Of a stretch of DNA of 64,000 nucleotides, positions 7,959 through 33,649 are shown one piece after another. This DNA comes from Lysobacteraceae bacterium (GTDB lineage: Bacteria; Pseudomonadota; Gammaproteobacteria; Xanthomonadales; Xanthomonadaceae). How positions within the stretch are numbered: position 1 is the stretch's first letter; every line of letters starts with the position of its first letter. A model generated the notes under the pieces. That model was not told the origin of the DNA. It ran no database searches and saw only the letters and a program-made list of their open reading frames with translations. The stretch covers positions 1 through 64,000 of the forward strand of contig JAEUPQ010000010.1 of the NCBI GenBank assembly GCA_016789405.1. Direction: 5' to 3'. A program made the translations under genes and the position numbers.

Positions 7959-9353
7959 ATGTCCCGCTCCGAACATCTGCAAGCCGTCGTTCCGCCGCCC
8001 GAAGGTTGGTCGCCCGCCAGCTGGCGTGGCTATCAGGCGCTGCAGCAGCCGACGTACGGCAACCCGGAAGAGCTCGAAGGCGTCCTGAACGAACTGCATG
8101 CGCTCCCGCCGCTGGTGACGTCGCGCGAGGTGATGAACCTGCGCCAGCAGCTGGCGGAAGCGCAGGAAGGCAAGCGTTTCCTGCTGCAAGGCGGCGACTG
8201 CGCGGAAATCTTCGACGACTGCACGCCGGAAGTGATTTCCAATCGCCTGAAGGTGCTGCTGCAGATGAGCCTCGTGCTCGTGCACGGCATGCGCCTGCCC
8301 GTGGTGCGCGTGGGCCGTTTCGCCGGCCAGTACGCGAAGCCGCGCTCGGCCGACACCGAGACCAAGGACGGCGTGACCCTGCCGAGCTACCGTGGCGATC
8401 TGGTCAACGGTCCGGCTTTCACGGCCGAGGCGCGAATCCCGGATCCACGCCGCATGATCAAGGGGCACGCGCGTTCGGCGATGACGATGAATTTCATCCG
8501 CGCGCTGATCGACGACGGCTTCGCCGACCTGCACCACCCCGAATACTGGAACCTCAACTGGGTCGGTCATTCGCCGCTCGCCGCCGAGTACCAGAAGATG
8601 GTCTCCGGCATCGGCGACGCCGTCCGCTTCATGGAGACGCTCTCGGGCGAGCCGATCCACAACCTGCGCAGCGTCGAGTTCTACACCTCGCACGAAGCGC
8701 TGCTTCTGCCCTACGAAGAGGGCGTGACGCGCCAGGTCCCGCGCCAGCAGGGCTGGTTCAACCTCGGCACGCACTTCCCGTGGATCGGCATGCGCACTGC
8801 GGCGATCGACGGCGCGCACGTCGAGTACTTCCGCGGCATCCGCAACCCGATCGCGGTCAAGATCGGTCCGTCGGTGGCTCCGGACCAGTTGCTGCGCCTG
8901 ATCGACGCATTGAACCCGCACGACGAGCCAGGCCGCCTGTGCCTGATCCATCGCATGAGCGCGACTTGCATCGCCGAGAAGCTGCCGCCGCTGCTCGATG
9001 CCGTGAAGCGCGAGGGTCGTCGCGTGCTGTGGATCTGCGATCCCATGCATGGCAACACCGAGGCGACCAGCAACGGCTACAAGACCCGCCGATTCGAGAA
9101 CATCCGCAGCGAGCTGGAGCAGGCGTTCGAATTGCACGCGGCGGCCGGCACGCGCCTCGGTGGCGCGCACCTGGAGCTGACCGGCGAAGACGTCACCGAG
9201 TGCACCGGAGGCGCGCGCGAACTGACCGACAAGGATCTGGAGCGCGCCTACCGCACGACGGTCGATCCGCGCCTGAACTACGAGCAGGCGCTGGAAATCG
9301 CGATGCTGATCGTGCGCAAGCAGGCGCAGATCAACGCACCGGCTGCGTTCTGA
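7959..9353 (+). CDS. aroG: 3-deoxy-D-arabino-heptulosonate 7-phosphate (DAHP) synthase, class II
   Basis: The enzyme condenses phosphoenolpyruvate and erythrose 4-phosphate, the first step of the shikimate pathway. The 464-residue product is a class II (plant/mycobacterial-type) DAHP synthase. It carries LLQGGDCAEIFDDC with the metal-binding Cys, RVGRFAGQYAKPRS, NWVGHSPL, WICDPMHGNT and GGAHLELTGEDVTEC. The ATG at 7959 follows CCAGGA at good spacing; an in-frame ATG at 7935 is an alternative. It lies 31 bases after dsbB and is closed by a strong terminator. Confidence 0.93.
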   Translation: MSRSEHLQAVVPPPEGWSPASWRGYQALQQPTYGNPEELEGVLNELHALPPLVTSREVMNLRQQLAEAQEGKRFLLQGGDCAEIFDDCTPEVISNRLKVLLQMSLVLVHGMRLPVVRVGRFAGQYAKPRSADTETKDGVTLPSYRGDLVNGPAFTAEARIPDPRRMIKGHARSAMTMNFIRALIDDGFADLHHPEYWNLNWVGHSPLAAEYQKMVSGIGDAVRFMETLSGEPIHNLRSVEFYTSHEALLLPYEEGVTRQVPRQQGWFNLGTHFPWIGMRTAAIDGAHVEYFRGIRNPIAVKIGPSVAPDQLLRLIDALNPHDEPGRLCLIHRMSATCIAEKLPPLLDAVKREGRRVLWICDPMHGNTEATSNGYKTRRFENIRSELEQAFELHAAAGTRLGGAHLELTGEDVTECTGGARELTDKDLERAYRTTVDPRLNYEQALEIAMLIVRKQAQINAPAAF

Positions 9354-26403: not shown

Positions 26404-28230
26404 TCATTCGACCGGCTCGCCTTGCGTGGCGGTTCTGGTGCGGTCGACGGCGTGGTCGATGAACTGCAGTCGTGCCAGCTCTTCGTACAGTCCGCCCTGC
26501 GCCATCAGGCCCTGGTGGGTGCCCTCGGCGACGATGCGCCCCCGGTCCATCACGACGATGCGATCGGCCTTGAGCACGGTCGCGAGGCGGTGCGCGATCA
26601 CCAGCGTGGTGCGGCCGCGCATCAGCGACTCCAGTGCCTGTTGGACCGCGTGTTCGCTGTGCGCGTCCAGCGCACTCGTTGCTTCGTCGAGCAGCAGGAT
26701 GGGCGCGTCCCTGAGCAGGGCGCGCGCGATCGCCACGCGCTGCTGCTGACCACCGGAAAGCCGGGCGCCGCGTTCGCCCAGGTCGGTGTCGGGTCCCTGT
26801 GGCAGGGCAGACAGGAACTCGGAGGCCTGCGCCGCCTGGATGGCGGCATCGAATGTGCCTTCGTCGGCCTCGAGGTTGCCGTAGCGAATGTTGTCCCGTG
26901 CCGAGACCGAGAACAGCGTGGGCTGTTGCGGCACCAGCGCCACCGCTGCGCGCAGCTCAGCCGGGTCCAGGCGCGTCAGCGGCGTGCCGTCGATGCGGAT
27001 CGACCCCTGGTCCGGATCGTGAAAGCGCAGCAGCAGGGAGAACACGGTGCTTTTCCCGGCACCGGAGGGGCCGACCAGTGCGACGGTCTCGCCGGGGCGC
27101 ACCCGCAGTTCGAAGTTCACCAGCGCCGGCACATCGGGGCGCTGCGGATAATGGAAGCCAACGTTCTCGAACACGATGTCGCCGTGGACCGGCTGCTGCA
27201 GCCTGTCAGGATTCTCCGGTGCGTGGATCGACGGGTGCTGGGCAAGCAGCTCGGTGATCCGGCTCATGCCGCCGGTGGCGCGCTGCAGATCGTTCCAGAT
27301 TTCCGCCAGGCTGGTCGCCGTGTTGCCGCCCAGCAGCGCATACATCACGAATTGAGCCAATGTCCCCGGGCTCATGCGTCCAGCTGCGACATCGTGCGCG
27401 CCGTGCCACAGCAGGAACACGACGGCGCCGCCGCCCAGCACGACTGCGGTCGCGTTCAAGGTGGCCTGGGCCCGGATCCGGCGTCGCGCAGCGGCGAGCG
27501 CCGCGTCCAGCGCGGTCGTGAATCGGCGATGCTCGTGGGACTCGCGCACGTGCGCCTGCACCGTGCGCACTGCCGCCAGTGTTTCGTTGGCCAGCGCGTT
27601 GGCATCGGCAATGCGATCCTGTCCCGAGCGTGCGAGTGTGCGCAGGCGTCGCCCGCCCAGGACGCTGGGCAGCACGCCCAAGGGAATCGCCAGCAGGGCA
27701 AAGAATGCAAGCTGTGCATTGGTGACGAACAGCATCGTGATTGCGCCGATCGTCATCGTCACGCCGGACAGCAGGCCCGAGATCGCGTACGTGAGTGTGT
27801 AGCGCAGGAACTCGACGTCCGACGTCAGTCGGGACATCAACTCGCCGCTGCGATTGACGTCGTGGAAGGCAGCGTCCAGCGTGAGCAGTCGCAGGTAGAG
27901 ACGCTCGCGAAGGTGGGCAACCACCCGTTCGCCGAGCAGTGCCGAAAAGACGTAGCGTGCTGCGCCGGCCACCGCGAGGAGCAGAGTGATACCGAGCAGG
28001 CCAAGGAAATCGCGATCGATCTGTGATGGATCGCCCTGTACGAAGCCGCCATCAATCAGCTTCGCCGTTGCCGTCGGCACGATCAGCGTCGCCGCGCTCG
28101 CAATGACGAACGAGATCAACCAGATCGTGAACAGCCAGGGATGCGCGCCGATCAGCGGCCAGAGTGCGCGCAGGCCGCTTTTCACCGCGGAGGTGGGCTT
28201 ACGCGCCATATGGAGATCGTCGTTGGTCAT
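26404..28230 (-). CDS. ABC transporter fusing membrane and ATPase domains (MsbA/LmrA type), candidate peptide exporter
   Basis: The 608-residue product has six membrane helices in about residues 1-310. The ATPase domain shows Walker A GPSGAGKST (387-395), signature LSGGQQQR (491-498) and Walker B ILLLDE (511-516). It has no N-terminal C39 peptidase, so it would export but not cleave a leader. ATG 28230 is preferred; ATG 28209 is possible. It is divergent from the two Cys-ended peptides and the ATP-grasp operon, so peptide export is a reasonable inference, though generic lipid or drug export is possible. Confidence 0.85.
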   Translation of the reverse strand: MTNDDLHMARKPTSAVKSGLRALWPLIGAHPWLFTIWLISFVIASAATLIVPTATAKLIDGGFVQGDPSQIDRDFLGLLGITLLLAVAGAARYVFSALLGERVVAHLRERLYLRLLTLDAAFHDVNRSGELMSRLTSDVEFLRYTLTYAISGLLSGVTMTIGAITMLFVTNAQLAFFALLAIPLGVLPSVLGGRRLRTLARSGQDRIADANALANETLAAVRTVQAHVRESHEHRRFTTALDAALAAARRRIRAQATLNATAVVLGGGAVVFLLWHGAHDVAAGRMSPGTLAQFVMYALLGGNTATSLAEIWNDLQRATGGMSRITELLAQHPSIHAPENPDRLQQPVHGDIVFENVGFHYPQRPDVPALVNFELRVRPGETVALVGPSGAGKSTVFSLLLRFHDPDQGSIRIDGTPLTRLDPAELRAAVALVPQQPTLFSVSARDNIRYGNLEADEGTFDAAIQAAQASEFLSALPQGPDTDLGERGARLSGGQQQRVAIARALLRDAPILLLDEATSALDAHSEHAVQQALESLMRGRTTLVIAHRLATVLKADRIVVMDRGRIVAEGTHQGLMAQGGLYEELARLQFIDHAVDRTRTATQGEPVE

Positions 28231-28363
28231 CGCATCCAGCGCTGGCCATGGGAGATCGGAGTGTGGCTTGGTACGCGAAGGCATACAAGCGGCCGCCGGA
28301 TGCATGCTGCCCTGCAGCAAGCATGAATGCCGTGACGCAGCGCCGATACGCGAAACAATCCGG

Positions 28364-28392
28364 TTGCCCTTCCCTGGGCTGCGTGCTATGTA
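28364..28392 (+). promoter_or_regulatory. Candidate promoter for the precursor peptide genes
   Basis: TTGCCC (28364-28369) and TATGTA (28387-28392) are spaced by 17 bases, 112 bases before the first peptide start. The match to sigma-70 consensus is only moderate. The 273-base region between the divergent ABC gene and the first peptide shows no other gene. Confidence 0.25.
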
Positions 28393-28503
28393 CGATCCGG
28401 TGTTGCCGGCGGCGGCAACGGCAACGGACCGCACGACAGGACTGTTTCTCGCCGCATCTTTCAACGTCATATCCACATCGACAAGGAACAAGGAACCATC
28501 GTC

Positions 28504-28701
28504 ATGCAAAACAAGAAGACGTTCGCATTCCAGCTGGCCTCGACGCAGAAGACCGCCGCAAAGACCGAAGACAAGCAGTGGCAGGTGCGCGATGGCGTGG
28601 CCCTGGCGGGCTGCACCGATCCGACCCGTGAAGGCGACTATCGCGCCGACATCGATATCTGGGGCAATTACCGCGGTCGCGACAAGGGCTACTGGTGCTG
28701 A
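28504..28701 (+). CDS. Putative RiPP precursor peptide 1 (two Cys, C-terminal YWC)
   Basis: The 65-residue peptide has a basic leader-like N-terminus with FAFQLAS at residues 7-13. The block WQVRDGVALAGC spans residues 26-37, and a polar, Asp/Arg/aromatic-rich C-terminal part ends in YWC. It has only two cysteines, Cys37 and Cys65 (the last residue). An AAGGAACAAGGAA region precedes the ATG. It is closely similar to the next small gene and has no signal peptide. The context (ATP-grasp ligase, protease, redox pair) points to a modified peptide whose leader is roughly residues 1-36. I know no named family for it. Confidence 0.75.
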   Translation: MQNKKTFAFQLASTQKTAAKTEDKQWQVRDGVALAGCTDPTREGDYRADIDIWGNYRGRDKGYWC

Positions 28702-28793
28702 TCCGGGCGACATCGCCCTGACAGTCGCCGCGTTCAGCGGCGAACTTCGTTCGCGCATGCTGCGCGATGATCCAGAGCTCGATGGAGTGGCAC

Positions 28794-28979
28794 ATGAAAA
28801 CACCAGACAAGGCCAGATCGTTCGCATTCAAGCTGGCAACGGATGCGAAGAAGCAGGACGAGAAGAAACCCGCGTGGCAGGTGCGCGACGGCGTTGCGGT
28901 CGCAGGCTGCAGCGGTCCCGATGCCCGTGCCGACGCTTACACGCCGTTCTACCGTCGCGATGCGGGATTCTACTGCTGA
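28794..28979 (+). CDS. Putative RiPP precursor peptide 2 (two Cys, C-terminal FYC)
   Basis: The 61-residue peptide is a paralogue of the preceding one. It has FAFKLAT at residues 10-16, WQVRDGVAVAGC at 28-39, then a core-like tail containing D, T, R and Y and ending GFYC. Cys39 and the terminal Cys61 are its only cysteines. ATG 28794 is chosen because GGAG lies 6 bases upstream; ATG 28782 would add four residues. The leader block is more conserved than the tail, as expected of leader and core in RiPP precursors. Confidence 0.75.
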   Translation: MKTPDKARSFAFKLATDAKKQDEKKPAWQVRDGVAVAGCSGPDARADAYTPFYRRDAGFYC

Positions 28980-29017
28980 GGCTGCGATTGCGATCCTGCA
29001 GTCGCCGCACGTCGACA

Positions 29018-29047
29018 ACAGGCCCCGCTTCGCGGGGCCTGTACTTT
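29018..29047 (+). terminator. Hairpin between precursor genes and modification operon (attenuator-like)
   Basis: An 11-bp perfect stem (29018-29028 with 29032-29042) is followed by ACTTTTCC, a short T-run. It sits 39 bases after the second peptide and 59 bases before the ATP-grasp gene. A partial terminator here would give high precursor and low enzyme expression. Confidence 0.7.
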
Positions 29048-29105
29048 TCCATCACGTCGTGATGACGCGCGCCGTCCTTCTGTCACGAGCCACATTCCCA
29101 AGCGC

Positions 29106-30116
29106 ATGAAGAACCACATCCTGGTCGTCACCCACAGCGGCGATCTGCATGCCGACCTTGTCATCGAACGACTGCACGGGCGCGATGCGCGCGTCTTCCG
29201 CCTCGATCTCGATCGCTTCCCTGCACAGTATCGATTCGATGCCCGGCAGCACTGCGGCGCTCCCTCGGGAGTGTTGCATCACCTGCCTTCGCGGGCGGAA
29301 GTGTCGATCGAGGACATCGGTGCGGTGTGGACGCGCAAATCGGGCGATTTCCGTTTTCTCAGCGACGAAGAGCTCGGCCCGCAGGAGCGCGCCTATGCGA
29401 TCGCGGAAACCCATCACATCCTGACTGGCCTGCTGCTGGCGATGGACGTGTACTGGATGAACCATCCCATGGCCACGAACAGCGCACGATGGAAGGGCGA
29501 GCAATTGCGACGGGCGGCGCGGATGGGCTTCCGCGTGCCGCCGTCGCTGGCAAGCAACGATGGCGATGTCGTACGTCGCTTTCGCGCCGAGCATGGCGGC
29601 GAAATCATCTTCAAGCCGCTCTCTTCGCCAAGCCTCGGGGCGGACGAGGTAGCGCCTGCCGATCGCATCGTGCCCAACCTGGCCACGACGCTGATCACCG
29701 ACGCGCACGACGACATGCTCGATGCGGTGCGCGAACTCCCCGGCTTCTTCCAGAAGTACATCCCGAAGCGCCATGAAATCCGGGCGACCGTCGTCGATGG
29801 CTGCGTGTTCGCTGCCCGGATCGAATCCCAGGGCGACGAGCGCACGCGCGTCGATTACCGCGATTTTTCTGCAGAGATCGACTATCGCGCCGAACGCCTG
29901 CCGCAGGAGGTCGAACATCGCTGTCTTGAGTTCGTCCACAGTTACGGATTGAAGTTCGGTGCGCTGGACCTGATCTGTACGCCCGAAGGTGAGTACGTGT
30001 TCCTGGAGAACAATCCCGCCGGGCAATTCCTGTTCGTCGAGCAACTGGTGCCGGAGCTGCGCATGCTGGATGCGGTCGCCGACTGCCTGTTCGACGGCGC
30101 AAGCCGCAGAGGTTGA
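29106..30116 (+). CDS. ATP-grasp peptide ligase, graspetide (MvdC/MvdD) type
   Basis: The 336-residue product resembles ATP-grasp enzymes that form ester or amide links between Asp/Glu and Thr/Ser/Lys side chains of precursor peptides (microviridin-type, graspetides). Visible marks are an N-terminal pre-ATP-grasp domain with AVWTRKSGDF (residues 73-82), MNHPMATNSARWKGEQLRRA from 118, IIFKPLSS at 167-174, FFQKYIPKRHEIRATVV at 214-230 and the metal-site motif ENNPAGQFLFVEQ at 301-313. Typical graspetide ligases have NPxGQWxWIE at this point. It is followed 4 bases later by the protease gene. RimK-like ligation of other substrates is an alternative. Confidence 0.82.
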   Translation: MKNHILVVTHSGDLHADLVIERLHGRDARVFRLDLDRFPAQYRFDARQHCGAPSGVLHHLPSRAEVSIEDIGAVWTRKSGDFRFLSDEELGPQERAYAIAETHHILTGLLLAMDVYWMNHPMATNSARWKGEQLRRAARMGFRVPPSLASNDGDVVRRFRAEHGGEIIFKPLSSPSLGADEVAPADRIVPNLATTLITDAHDDMLDAVRELPGFFQKYIPKRHEIRATVVDGCVFAARIESQGDERTRVDYRDFSAEIDYRAERLPQEVEHRCLEFVHSYGLKFGALDLICTPEGEYVFLENNPAGQFLFVEQLVPELRMLDAVADCLFDGASRRG

Positions 30117-30120
30117 CACG

Positions 30121-30990
30121 ATGTCCGCATTTCCCGGTCTGCACCTGTTCGAGAGCGATGGACATTCCCGCGTCCTGGTGCTGGGCGCGACCCATCTGGA
30201 ATGCGAGCTGCTGCCCGTGCTGCACGATGCGCTGCGGCGAATGGGGCGCGTGCAACGTCTCGATGTGATCGCGTACTGTCGCGGCGGCGAGGTGGCCGTT
30301 GCGCGCCGGATCGGCTTGCTGCTGCACCGGTTCGCTGAGCGCGTGCGCTTCATCGTCCCCCACCACTGCCAATCGGCGGGCACCGTGATGGCGCTGGCCG
30401 CGCACGAGATCGTCGCTGGGCCGCTGGCGATGTTCTCGCCGATCGATCCGCATCTCGCCGGCACCGATGCGAGCGGGGAGGCTGCTGCGATGTCGGCGCT
30501 GGACATCCGCATGTTCCCGAAGCTGGCGCAGGACTGGTTCGGCCTGGACGAAACCGCTGCGCGCGAACGCGCATTGCCCTTGCTGTGCGAGAGCATCGCA
30601 CCTGCCGCGCTTACCGCGTTCTATCGCAGCACCCTCGCGGTGCGCCAGATCGGCGAGGAATTGCTGGCGTTGCACATGCCGGAGGCATCGCAGGACGCGC
30701 GCAGCACCATCGTCGAGACGCTGCTGTTCGGCTTCCATGCGCACGATTACACGCTGACCGGAGAAGATCTTCGCGCGATCGGGTTGAATGTGCAGGGCGA
30801 TCCTGCCCTGGAAGACGCCGCATGGACGATCGTGGCGGAACTGCGCACGCGCATGGGCCCGGAGACGCGCAAGGCGAATCCACGCGGCTGGTGCGATGCC
30901 CTGGTCGCGACCCGCGACGGTGGGTTCGTGCGCACCCGCCAGCAGGACATGCTGCCGGGCGACTGGCATGCCTTCGACGTGGCGTCATGA
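30121..30990 (+). CDS. SDH-family (ClpP/SppA-fold) serine protease
   Basis: The 289-residue product has the crotonase/ClpP-fold pattern of serine dehydrogenase proteinase proteins. An oxyanion-loop region shows CRGGEVAVARRI (53-64), the nucleophile motif HHCQSAGTVMALAAHEIV has Ser85, and LAMFSPIDPHL follows at 102-112. No membrane segment is obvious. It overlaps the next gene as ATGA and follows the ATP-grasp gene by 4 bases. Since the exporter lacks a peptidase domain, removal of the precursor leader is a reasonable proposed role, but this is inference. Confidence 0.75.
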   Translation: MSAFPGLHLFESDGHSRVLVLGATHLECELLPVLHDALRRMGRVQRLDVIAYCRGGEVAVARRIGLLLHRFAERVRFIVPHHCQSAGTVMALAAHEIVAGPLAMFSPIDPHLAGTDASGEAAAMSALDIRMFPKLAQDWFGLDETAARERALPLLCESIAPAALTAFYRSTLAVRQIGEELLALHMPEASQDARSTIVETLLFGFHAHDYTLTGEDLRAIGLNVQGDPALEDAAWTIVAELRTRMGPETRKANPRGWCDALVATRDGGFVRTRQQDMLPGDWHAFDVAS

Positions 30991-31541
30991 GCATCGATGT
31001 CTATCTCGCTGAGGGTTGCCGGTGGTTCGTGCTCATCGCGCTGCTGGCCGCGGCGATCGGCAAGAGTGTGCACTTCCGCAGGTTTGGCGAAAGCCTCGAT
31101 GAGGGTTTCCAGGGGCTGGGTCGCGGCAGTGCCGCCATCCTTGCATCGCTCGTGCTCGCTGGTGAATGGTCTGCCGCTGCACTGATGCTGGCCGGAGGTG
31201 GTCTGTCGCGCGCCGGATTGATGCTGTCGCTGGTCCTGTTCGTTTCGCTCACCCTGGTAGTGCTCGTCGTGCTTGCCAGGGATCTGACGGTTCGCTGCAA
31301 CTGCTTCGGCGCAGGCCAGCAACGCATTTCCGGGTTCGATCTGGCGCGCAATCTGATGTTCATCGCGTCCGCCGGCATCGGCTTGCAGGGCGCTTCCGCC
31401 ACGGGGGCGACCGGTATCCTGGGCGGCTTGCCGGCCATGTCCTCTGCGCCGATCGCCATCGTGGCGCTGATGTTGTTCCTCCTGTCCATCCACCTGCGCG
31501 ATGTCGTCCATCTGATGCAGATACGCACGCAGGACCTGTAA
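30987..31541 (+). CDS. MauE-like membrane protein
   Basis: The 184-residue product has about four to five membrane helices and the MauE/DoxX-type motif VRCNCFGAG (Cys104 and Cys106). In methylamine dehydrogenase clusters MauE works with MauD to form disulfides in the small subunit. No methylamine dehydrogenase genes lie here. It is coupled to the protease gene by an ATGA overlap and precedes the MauD-like thioredoxin by 50 bases. It probably passes electrons across the membrane for disulfide formation (inference). Confidence 0.78.
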   Translation: MSIDVYLAEGCRWFVLIALLAAAIGKSVHFRRFGESLDEGFQGLGRGSAAILASLVLAGEWSAAALMLAGGGLSRAGLMLSLVLFVSLTLVVLVVLARDLTVRCNCFGAGQQRISGFDLARNLMFIASAGIGLQGASATGATGILGGLPAMSSAPIAIVALMLFLLSIHLRDVVHLMQIRTQDL

Positions 31542-31591: not shown

Positions 31592-32155
31592 ATGACGCTC
31601 GATTCGACCCTGCTCGGCACGCTGGTCATCGCACTGACCGCCCTGGTCGCGTTCAACCTGTTCCTGAGCCTGCGCCTGACCCGGTTGGTGAATGCGCTGG
31701 CACAGGCGCGTCTTCCGGACACGGTGCCGATCGGCGCGCCATTGCCGCGATTCCAGGGAACCTTGCTGGATGGACGGAGTATCGGTGCCGGCGCGTTTCC
31801 GGACGGGCAGGCGGCGGTGCTGGTCTTCCTCAGCGCGGGTTGCCAGGCCTGCCAGCAACGTCTGCCGGAACTCGCACGGATGCTGCCTCTGATGGAGGAG
31901 TCCGGTGTTGCCCTGTGGGTGGTTGCCCAGGGTCGGCAGCGCGACCTGCACGCGTATTTCGAGACGACCGGTCTGCTGCATCGTCTCGTCCGCGTTGATC
32001 GTCGCAGCCTGCGCAGGCTGAATCCGAAATTCTCCGCGCCGTTCTACGTCTTCGTCGACGCCGATGGCATTGTGCAGGCCAGCAATCTCATCGGTGACGA
32101 GAACTGGCTGAGCTTCCGTGAACAGATCGGCGACAAGACTCTGATCATCGAATGA
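31592..32155 (+). CDS. MauD-like membrane-anchored thioredoxin
   Basis: The 187-residue product has an N-terminal membrane helix (residues 8-28) and a thioredoxin-like domain with the redox pair Cys84-Gln-Ala-Cys87 (FLSAGCQACQQRLPEL). A cis-Pro region SAPFYVFVDADGIV follows. The CQAC active site and long pre-domain linker resemble MauD rather than classical thioredoxin. With the MauE-like protein it forms a likely periplasmic thiol-redox pair, here probably acting on the two-Cys peptides. It is the last gene of the operon. Confidence 0.8.
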   Translation: MTLDSTLLGTLVIALTALVAFNLFLSLRLTRLVNALAQARLPDTVPIGAPLPRFQGTLLDGRSIGAGAFPDGQAAVLVFLSAGCQACQQRLPELARMLPLMEESGVALWVVAQGRQRDLHAYFETTGLLHRLVRVDRRSLRRLNPKFSAPFYVFVDADGIVQASNLIGDENWLSFREQIGDKTLIIE

Positions 32156-32194: not shown

Positions 32195-33373
32195 TCAGGC
32201 TTTCTTGCGCAGCGTGTTGATCTGGATGTGCGGCCAGCGCGTGGTCTGTCCGTTCGATCCGAACATGAATTCGAAGAAGATGATCTGCTCGTACTGCAGC
32301 TGAAGCACTTCGGTACCGTCTTCTTCCACGACCGTTTCCAGCCACATGTTCATGGTCATTTCGGTCGGCTTGGCGAACTGCGTCACGAACGGCGTGTTCA
32401 GGATGCCGCCCTGCGGCCCGCCGTCGTGTTTCGTCGTGAGCTGGATCAGGGTGTACTTGCTGATGTTCTGGTTCTTGATGACATCGCGCAGGCGCAGATC
32501 CGGGCGCACCGAGTACGGATAGTGCGGATCGGCGACGATGCGCTGGAAGTAGGTGAGATTGCCATCGGGATCGGTCACCGGCAGCGCCTTGTCGAAAGCC
32601 CAGGCCGGCGCCGACTCGTCCAGGTTCAGCGGCGCGGCGGTGGAGCTGCCGGGTGCCGTCAACAGCACCGTCGCGCCCATGCTGGGCGAGATCGCCAGCG
32701 GCGACGCTGCCAGGTTCGGCGCGTTCGCGACCTGCAGCGCCGGCCATGAGGTGACGAACGGATGCGTCCAGCTGTCCGGGCCGGTGGGAAACGGCGGCTT
32801 GCCGTCGACGTCCTGCGCGAAGCTGCCCATCAGCATGATCGTGCTGCCGTGCGGAATCGTGCCGCTGCGCGCGATCGGGTAGGGCGGCACGAAGTTCGGG
32901 CCATTGGCGCCTGCGCCGACCGAAATGCCGGGGTAGCCGTTGTCTTCGATCACCGACTGCTCGGTCGCCGCATGGTTGTACATCTGGTCGAACCACAGGT
33001 ACATGCCAACTTCTTCGTGCAGGCCCACGCCGTCACTCGCGCGCTGGATGCTCTGCCGATACTCGACGGCGCCTGCGAACTGTTCGTTGGTGCCGCCGCG
33101 ATTGCGCACCGAGCCCTCGACCGGCGCGAACGTCAGTTCCTCGACATAGTCTTCGCACAGGAAGTGGAAGATGCCGAAGATCGTTTCGGAATTGGTGCCC
33201 GGCGACGGCATGCAGGTCGTATGCAGCCCCAGGTTCGTGCTGCTGTTGCTCGGGTTGACATTGACCCATGTGCCGAACAACTGCTCCAGGATGCCGTAGT
33301 TCGCGGGCTGGGTCAGCACCGCGTCGGTATATTCCGGGTAGGGCGGCGTCGGAAAGGTGGGAATCTGCATCAT
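32195..33373 (-). CDS. Large cytosolic protein with a heme-binding beta-barrel (FABP/nitrobindin-like) domain
   Basis: The 392-residue product starts after an excellent AAGGAG at 7 bases (MMQIPTFPTPPYPEY). It shows NYGILEQLFGTWVNVNP, LHEEVGMYLWFDQ and repeated beta-strand patterns resembling fatty-acid-binding or nitrobindin-type heme barrels, but longer than usual. No signal peptide is seen. Family assignment is tentative and no neighbour explains it. It is convergent with the RiPP-like operon. Confidence 0.45.
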   Translation of the reverse strand: MMQIPTFPTPPYPEYTDAVLTQPANYGILEQLFGTWVNVNPSNSSTNLGLHTTCMPSPGTNSETIFGIFHFLCEDYVEELTFAPVEGSVRNRGGTNEQFAGAVEYRQSIQRASDGVGLHEEVGMYLWFDQMYNHAATEQSVIEDNGYPGISVGAGANGPNFVPPYPIARSGTIPHGSTIMLMGSFAQDVDGKPPFPTGPDSWTHPFVTSWPALQVANAPNLAASPLAISPSMGATVLLTAPGSSTAAPLNLDESAPAWAFDKALPVTDPDGNLTYFQRIVADPHYPYSVRPDLRLRDVIKNQNISKYTLIQLTTKHDGGPQGGILNTPFVTQFAKPTEMTMNMWLETVVEEDGTEVLQLQYEQIIFFEFMFGSNGQTTRWPHIQINTLRKKA

Positions 33374-33649
33374 CGAGCACTCCTTGCTGGGTTGGATGAC
33401 CGGGCTGTCCATGGTGTGGCTTTGTTGATATCGGGCTCGCCATTGCGATCGACCTGAAGCCACTGCGCGTCGCGATATCTCCTCGTCCCTGCGGCGGTGA
33501 AGCACCTGTCCGCATGACGAAGGCTCTTCCCGAAAGGGTACGGAATCGATGCGGTGGGACGGGATCAGAACGGGATCAAAAAGCGCGAAGATGCCCGGAA
33601 ATTTCCAGTGGGAGCGCATTGTCTTCGTTGACGGGTGCGTGCATGGCCG

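Follow-up and report, generated by a model that had tools for sequence, protein, structure and literature searches.

The question raised by the window, a 64,000-nucleotide stretch of a Lysobacteraceae genome, is what kind of peptide is encoded by two tandem small open reading frames (ORFs) in its middle part, and which enzymes of the locus might act on it. Both ORFs were found where the original prediction had placed them. Precursor peptide 1 (28504..28701, plus strand) has 65 amino acids, with a leader of residues 1-36 and a predicted core of residues 37-65 (28612-28698), and precursor peptide 2 (28794..28979, plus strand) has 61 amino acids, with a leader of residues 1-38 and a predicted core of residues 39-61 (28908-28976), as delimited by the family alignment described below. 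The start of precursor 2 at ATG 28794 is backed by homologues; a longer ORF would begin at the upstream ATG 28767. The predicted common blocks FAFxLA and WQVRDGVAxAGC, the latter followed by T or S, were seen in both peptides, as was an aromatic pair preceding a Cys as the last residue (YWC in precursor 1, FYC in precursor 2). Each peptide contains exactly two Cys, spaced by 28 residues in precursor 1 and by 22 in precursor 2. Analysis of all 142 ATG-initiated ORFs of 40-90 amino acids in the six frames of the window revealed two ORFs ending in Cys, and the same two were the ones ending in Cys with exactly two Cys in total; since both precursors have these features, they are the 2 of the 142. 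Comparison of precursor 1 with four orthologues, from four genomes of the window's genus, gave dN/dS values of 0.10-0.37 for the whole gene and 0.06-0.26 for the core alone (ten pairs). This indicated that precursor 1 is a translated gene under purifying selection, core included. An AlphaFold model of precursor 1 was uninformative (pLDDT 53.5). No sigma-70-type promoter was found in 28220-29200 and no tRNA within the window.

The two precursor genes are followed on the plus strand by a hairpin and by genes for an ATP-grasp ligase, an SDH-type protease, a MauE-like protein and a MauD-like protein, and an ABC exporter gene lies upstream in divergent orientation. The ATP-grasp ligase (29106..30116, plus strand) is of the graspetide-synthetase type. 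It matched TIGR04187 with an E-value of 1.1e-72 (244.9 bits, under the curated cut-off of 350) and the MvdD-type pre-ATP-grasp domain PF21068 with 64 bits (cut-off 27). The best match in the Protein Data Bank (PDB) was CdnC (7mgv, 5.6e-42), followed by the ligases 5ig8 (1.9e-37) and 5ig9 (1.8e-36), which we take to be microviridin enzymes. As its scores stay below the NCBIfam curated cut-offs, the protein is not a member of the MvdD, MvdC or SAV_5884 families in that sense.

The SDH/ClpP/SppA-like serine protease (30121..30990, plus strand) matched PF01972 with 61.9 bits (cut-off 31.3) and missed the cut-off of NCBIfam NF047768. The Ser located in a C[QEA]S[AS] motif was conserved in all 36 homologues. 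A structural model (pLDDT 78.9) had ClpP and SppA as best structural matches, with E-values of 3.9e-5 at most and a TM-score of about 0.4 by query length; enoyl-CoA hydratases matched too, with lower TM-scores. No other protease was recognised in the cassette, and this protein is a candidate leader peptidase. The ABC exporter (26404..28230, minus strand) was found to have no C39 peptidase domain, and a Pfam scan of three ABC proteins (that of the window and those of loci L105 and L106) found this domain in none of them, so that a separate leader protease is to be expected. The ABC protein of the window is 77-80% identical to those beside four related Lysobacter-group cassettes and 59-62% identical to copies in four genomes without precursors; genomes G006 and G007 have both kinds.

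The MauE-like membrane protein (30987..31541, plus strand) matched PF07291 with 69.5 bits (cut-off 27) and carries a CNCFG motif; CxCFG was found in 32 of 32 MauE proteins. The MauD-like protein (31592..32155, plus strand), a membrane-anchored thioredoxin-fold protein with a CxxC motif, matched PF00578 with 31.4 bits (cut-off 26) and, among PDB entries, a thiol:disulfide interchange protein (E 2.7e-5). CxxC is present in all 32 MauD-like proteins. The score for the MauD equivalog TIGR02661 (18.9 bits) was below the curated cut-off of 188.6, and the protein is therefore named MauD-like only. PADLOC gave no match for the four cassette enzymes. Beyond the cassette, and convergent with it, a gene for an FMP-type peroxidase (NF040571, 565 bits) lies at 32198-33619 on the minus strand.

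The distribution of the precursors was assessed by searches of increasing breadth. When the window's own genome was searched with precursor 1, five matches were clear, from E 4.7e-43 (precursor 1 matching itself) to 7.0e-6; two of them lie in the window and the other three on contig 28. A sixth match on contig 34 (E 0.18) was dismissed as chance. Contig 28 carries a second, diverged cassette that was not part of the original prediction (L030, 7255-11356), with three precursors and genes for ATP-grasp, SDH, MauE and MauD-like proteins; an ABC gene was not found alongside. A scan of genome contigs with one precursor returned nine loci, namely six in Lysobacter or Lysobacteraceae MAGs, one in a Brevundimonas MAG, one in Massilia sp. 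YIM B02769 (L106) and one false locus (L107, Verrucomicrobiales), which was rejected because the same peptide string lies within a 307-amino-acid hydrolase-like ORF. With a profile of 17 precursors, 24 of the 395 genomes of the window's bacterial family were matched at E <= 0.01. Eight of these were convincing (E <= 5.2e-13), seven in the window's genus, own genome included, and one in another genus (G355). The other sixteen (E 1.6e-4 to 0.0084) were judged to be chance matches; in four of them that were fetched (L065-L068), no cassette gene was seen except ABC-type matches in two. With 32 precursors in the profile, matches were obtained in 24 of 294 genomes in the bacterial family of the Massilia genome, in 1 of 199 in the family of the Brevundimonas genome (that genome itself) and in 1 of 369 in a class-wide sample (the window's own genome). 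Within the sampled genomes the precursor family is rare overall, yet not rare in one group. Searches of NCBIfam and Pfam with the 32 precursors produced scattered matches only (best E 0.0056, at most 2 of the 32 members per family), and the PDB gave no match to them at E <= 1.

The family analysed comprises 86 precursor genes, spread over 37 loci and 33 genomes, with one to ten precursors per locus and cores of 19-29 residues. The largest array (L161, 7941-10159) has ten tandem precursors with ten different cores upstream of one ATP-grasp gene. The original prediction had asked for conservation of both Cys and of core Asp/Glu/Thr/Lys positions. In 85 of the 86 members the core has exactly two Cys (the first and the last residue, hereafter Cys1 and CysN), Thr or Ser directly after Cys1 (T/S2), and Asp at position -5 from the last Cys (D-5). 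The sole exception is a decaying copy in L032 (4797-4985), in which the FAF motif and the terminal Cys are both lost. Homologues without the Cys, which would have spoken against the two-Cys pattern, were sought with a leader-only pattern that ignores the core: it selected 84 ORFs across the 37 loci, every one a family member, and the only member without a terminal Cys, the L032 copy, fails this leader-only pattern. For one L161 precursor (8771-8911) FAF was not seen in the ORF as called, with the core complete.

Comparison of the 68 distinct cores, from the 85 members that remain when the L032 copy is left out, was made after removal of one extra Ala past the last Cys in three L161 copies. Both Cys bracket the core, with none elsewhere, in 68 of 68. 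Residue 2 is Thr in 42 and Ser in 26 cores, D-5 is present in all of them, and Gly at -3 in 67. The residue T/S2 is the sole S/T/K in nine cores and D-5 the sole D/E in one. As both residues are universal and some cores offer no alternative, T/S2 and D-5 are the only donor-acceptor pair common to all cores. Both were also kept in 27 of 27 representatives under 60% identity, with the reservation that two-Cys members had been used to build the family profile and that a few lineages contributed all the sequences. Additional S/T/K residues occur in 59 of the 68 cores (two or more in 48) and additional D/E in 67, so that further rings are possible, also in the peptides of the window. An aromatic residue precedes the last Cys in 62 cores; Ser, Ile or Leu is found there in six. 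Upstream of the core, FAFxLA is invariant in the 32-precursor alignment, and there is no Pro at the position of the Phhx(1,2)h motif, a leader motif that, according to the accessible text of Makarova et al. (2022; PMC8939145), occurs in about half of graspetide precursors. The leader ends with Ala-Gly right before Cys1 (Gly-Gly once, in L030), and a small-residue doublet of this type is used for predicting graspetide precursor cleavage in the same text (PMC8939145).

The second point that could have told against the reading as modified peptides was an occurrence apart from modification genes. An ATP-grasp gene was found in 37 of 37 loci, SDH in 36, and MauE together with the MauD-like gene in 32. 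An ABC gene lies no more than 1.2 kb away in 31 loci; the complete set including ABC was present in 30. The Massilia family contributes 24 loci (L106, L142-L164), every one of them complete; in L144 the ABC gene shows up as two overlapping ORFs. Five loci lack MauE and MauD-like genes, of which L036 and L037 run into contig ends and L033, L102 and L038 are uncut; in L102 SDH is absent as well. For L102 (genome G007), MauE and MauD-like genes are present in a second cassette on contig 13. L038 lies on contig 4 of genome G004 with precursors and no MauE/MauD in cis, and the other half of that cassette (L192, contig 32, 4295-8410) has SDH, MauE and MauD-like genes and a divergent ABC gene, with no precursor and no ATP-grasp gene. 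In genome G006, which has precursors and is 82% complete, MauE and MauD were not found anywhere in the genome. Among ten genomes of the window's genus that were searched, a set that leaves G005 outside, the MauD-like protein and MauE were over the cut-off in the same five, and all five have precursors; the four without precursors have no MauD-like protein and no MauE over the cut-off, one of them (G008) giving a sub-cut-off MauE match. The conserved leader, the variable core, the tandem copies and the graspetide-synthetase-type ATP-grasp gene at every locus together support the proposed reading of the peptides as RiPP precursors.

As controls served 16 ATP-grasp loci from the window's bacterial family that are not members, hand-picked across 73 such places with the best-scoring one included. 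Homologues of SDH, MauE or MauD (E <= 1e-5) were seen at none of the 16 within the 8-12.5 kb fetched. An ABC gene was near 9 of the 16, which indicates that ABC linkage alone is not specific. Matches to the precursor profile at four control loci (best E 0.03) were taken as chance. Beside one control ATP-grasp gene of the window's genus, a graspetide-like precursor candidate of another type was noticed, which contains a GGGG stretch (L172, 3114-3287).

A single branch of the ATP-grasp tree has the 37 members on one side (100/100). The protein of G355, a genome from the window's bacterial family although from another genus (cassette L064, 6793-11773), groups with the 24 rows of the Massilia family (100/99), a placement that suggests horizontal transfer, with the warning that long branches meet where the controls join the members and that the G355 row is among the long ones. 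A search with the ATP-grasp protein of L106 (E <= 1e-55) matched 21 of 250 Massilia-family genomes, each of which belongs to the 24 (of 294) that have precursors. Outside the 37 loci, contig 547 of G005 (270-557) encodes the 96-residue end of a member-like ATP-grasp protein, 86% identical to that of the window; from this fragment, G005 probably has a second cassette too.

MauE and MauD are known from the maturation of methylamine dehydrogenase, an enzyme with a quinone cofactor. It has been speculated that MauE aids disulfide formation in a subunit of this enzyme, and the role of MauD was described as unclear (van der Palen, 1997, as cited in the accessible part of PMC7794033). This speculation, together with the two invariant Cys of the precursors, is the reason for assigning the disulfide step to MauE and the MauD-like protein, and their presence in 32 of 37 loci is strong circumstantial support for a Cys1-CysN disulfide. 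In 32 of 32 MauD-like proteins, some with uncertain starts, the segment that follows the membrane anchor carries more positive charge than the preceding segment. By the positive-inside rule, applied here uncalibrated against canonical proteins, the CxxC domain would face the cytoplasm, and on the same uncalibrated charge rule the CxC loop of MauE (ten proteins examined) probably does so too. Thiol motifs predicted to be cytoplasmic are a poor fit with periplasmic disulfide formation.

Taken together, these observations make it reasonably probable that the locus is a self-contained graspetide-type RiPP operon in which a T/S2-D-5 ester is nested in a Cys1-CysN disulfide, with a protease and export of its own. 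The assignment as graspetide-type comes from features of the enzyme and the precursors, and the linkage is a predicted one. The FAFxLA leader would likely be the recruiting handle for the ATP-grasp ligase, a role that PFFARFL plays in microviridins (accessible text of PMC8939145). The ligase would phosphorylate and so activate a core Asp, most likely D-5, which would then be esterified with T/S2 behind Cys1 to give a macrolactone. The predicted pair would be T38 and D60 in precursor 1 and S40 and D56 in precursor 2. In the presumed order of steps, MauE and the MauD-like protein would next assist the oxidation of Cys1 and CysN to a disulfide. The result would be two concentric staples, the disulfide outside and the ester inside, enclosing the variable loop. 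The monoisotopic masses calculated for core 1 are 3480.536 in linear form and 3460.510 with both staples, and those for core 2 are 2601.116 and 2581.090. The SDH/ClpP-like protease would most likely cleave after Ala-Gly, at a predicted site that makes Cys residue 1, and the ABC exporter would secrete the product. We further propose, as a tentative model with somewhat lower odds than even, a distinct graspetide class of doubly stapled hairpins in which a dedicated MauE/MauD relay forms the disulfide, possibly in the cytoplasm and before export, one T/S2-D-5 ester is made, and an SppA/ClpP-type enzyme is the leader peptidase, which would be of a kind new to RiPPs.

Other readings of the same genes have to be weighed against this. 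The peptides could be ordinary multi-ring graspetides, with esters or amides that depend on the individual core, Cys that oxidise unaided, and MauE/MauD employed otherwise, for instance in keeping thiols reduced. The additional residues described above fit such rings, with at least one S/T/K besides T/S2 in 59 and at least two in 48 of the 68 cores and two or more D/E in 67, as does the lack of MauE/MauD in cis at three uncut loci. We regard this reading as rather unlikely, because nine cores have no donor but T/S2, the only universal residues that could be linked in this way are T/S2 and D-5, and MauE/MauD follow the two-Cys precursors and are missing at 16 of 16 control loci. The Cys themselves might be the nucleophiles of the ATP-grasp reaction, giving Cys-Asp thioesters that replace or precede the O-ester. 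Cys and D-5 are both universal, and non-native thioesters are within reach of graspetide synthetases according to the accessible parts of PMC13097080 and PMC12291112. Such a reaction would give no account of the universal T/S2 or of the MauE/MauD pair, which makes it improbable. It also has against it that thioesters are labile.

An ATP-grasp ligase need not form a ring at all, and amino acids are joined to peptides by other ATP-grasp families. The product could accordingly be a secreted two-Cys peptide that is not cross-linked, to which an amino acid or other group is added, and a weak match of the window's ligase to rimK (TIGR00768, 28.6 bits) would agree with this. Graspetide maturases and CdnC are by far the nearest matches, and the conserved D-5 and T/S2 lie inside the core and not at its extreme ends, so that we hold this to be quite improbable. 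The homology of MauE to a protein linked to methylamine dehydrogenase maturation brings up a peptide-derived redox cofactor, in which the aromatic-Cys end would become a quinone or thioether. The aromatic residue that precedes the last Cys in 62 of 68 cores would suit such chemistry, and so would the FMP-type peroxidase gene that adjoins the cassette in the window and in L031. Ser, Ile or Leu takes the place of the aromatic residue in the other six cores, and the peroxidase adjoins the cassette only at these two of the 20 loci compared; the locus-wide searches covered five cassette families and the peroxidase, with other neighbours viewed as raw ORFs at few loci. A cofactor is in our opinion very improbable.

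The doubly stapled graspetide reading was compared with known systems. The family shares with graspetides of the microviridin/chryseoviridin type, which are omega-ester-containing peptides, the MvdD-type pre-ATP-grasp domain, with CdnC and 5ig8/5ig9 as nearest solved relatives, as well as a conserved leader, an acceptor Asp, a donor Thr/Ser and a small-residue doublet preceding the core. It differs from them in that two invariant Cys bracket every core and a single donor-acceptor pair is universal, in that the FAFxLA leader is without the Pro of Phhx(1,2)h, and in the cassette, which has an SDH/ClpP-like protease, MauE, a MauD-like protein and ABC proteins without C39 (three scanned). Predicted Lysobacter graspetide precursors with their own arrangement of linking residues were placed in cluster 859 by Makarova et al. 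(2022; accessible text of PMC8939145), and the present family may be this cluster, a comparison made by description only. The main text of PMC8939145 makes no mention of MauE, MauD, ClpP, SppA, disulfide or thioredoxin. The accessible passages of the decRiPPter paper (PMC7794033) describe MauE in three candidate families, accompanied in one of them by MauD, next to predicted precursors, and its authors suggest a precursor-modification role for MauE/MauD. Those are Streptomyces families whose precursors have at least eight Cys, in contrast to two here, and a link to a graspetide ATP-grasp enzyme is not stated in these passages. A serine proteinase occurs in over half of the clusters of graspetide group 9 (accessible part of PMC13097080). 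The main text of PMC13097080 does not mention Cys, cysteine, disulfide, Massilia, MauE, MauD or thioredoxin, and the motifs of group 9 were put in cluster 2, tied to an actinobacterial branch, in the accessible text of Makarova et al. (PMC8939145). The Lysobacter graspetide Gra-8 has, according to the accessible part of PMC9576775, several conserved acceptors and up to three dehydrations, and so does not resemble the present family. Disulfides that appear in the accessible parts of PMC12291112 and PMC13003496 are incidental (a fluorescent-protein construct, a removed Cys of ThfA and an engineered lasso chimera). In the accessible literature, with the numbered-group papers lying outside it, no description of a MauE/MauD-linked two-Cys graspetide architecture was found. 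What would be new relative to known graspetides, judging from the sequences, is the universal pair of bracketing Cys with the MauE/MauD/SDH set; we do not claim that the precursors themselves are unrecorded.

If the proposed architecture is correct, graspetides would have a second, redox-controlled staple with enzymes devoted to making it. MauE and MauD would gain a small, tractable substrate of about 20-30 residues for their proposed disulfide role, and the SDH protein would be a candidate leader protease for a class in which many clusters have no identifiable one (accessible part of PMC13039773, which also reports the first specific protease for microviridins). With its constant frame and a core that varies freely (19-29 residues, as many as ten tandem copies per genome), the family would also be an attractive scaffold. 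By analogy, the product may inhibit proteases, an activity ascribed to every graspetide characterised by 2022 (accessible text of PMC8939145). Arg is present in 67 of 68 cores and the remaining core has Lys, which would be in keeping with a trypsin-like target, although the indication is weak.

A strong terminator-like hairpin (29018..29042, plus strand) with 11 pairs and a T-rich tail separates precursor 2 from the ATP-grasp gene, and the region 28980-29060 has a z-score of -5.46. This hairpin is possibly an attenuator. Similar hairpins were seen in 22 of the 37 loci by a rough scan run without a shuffle control.
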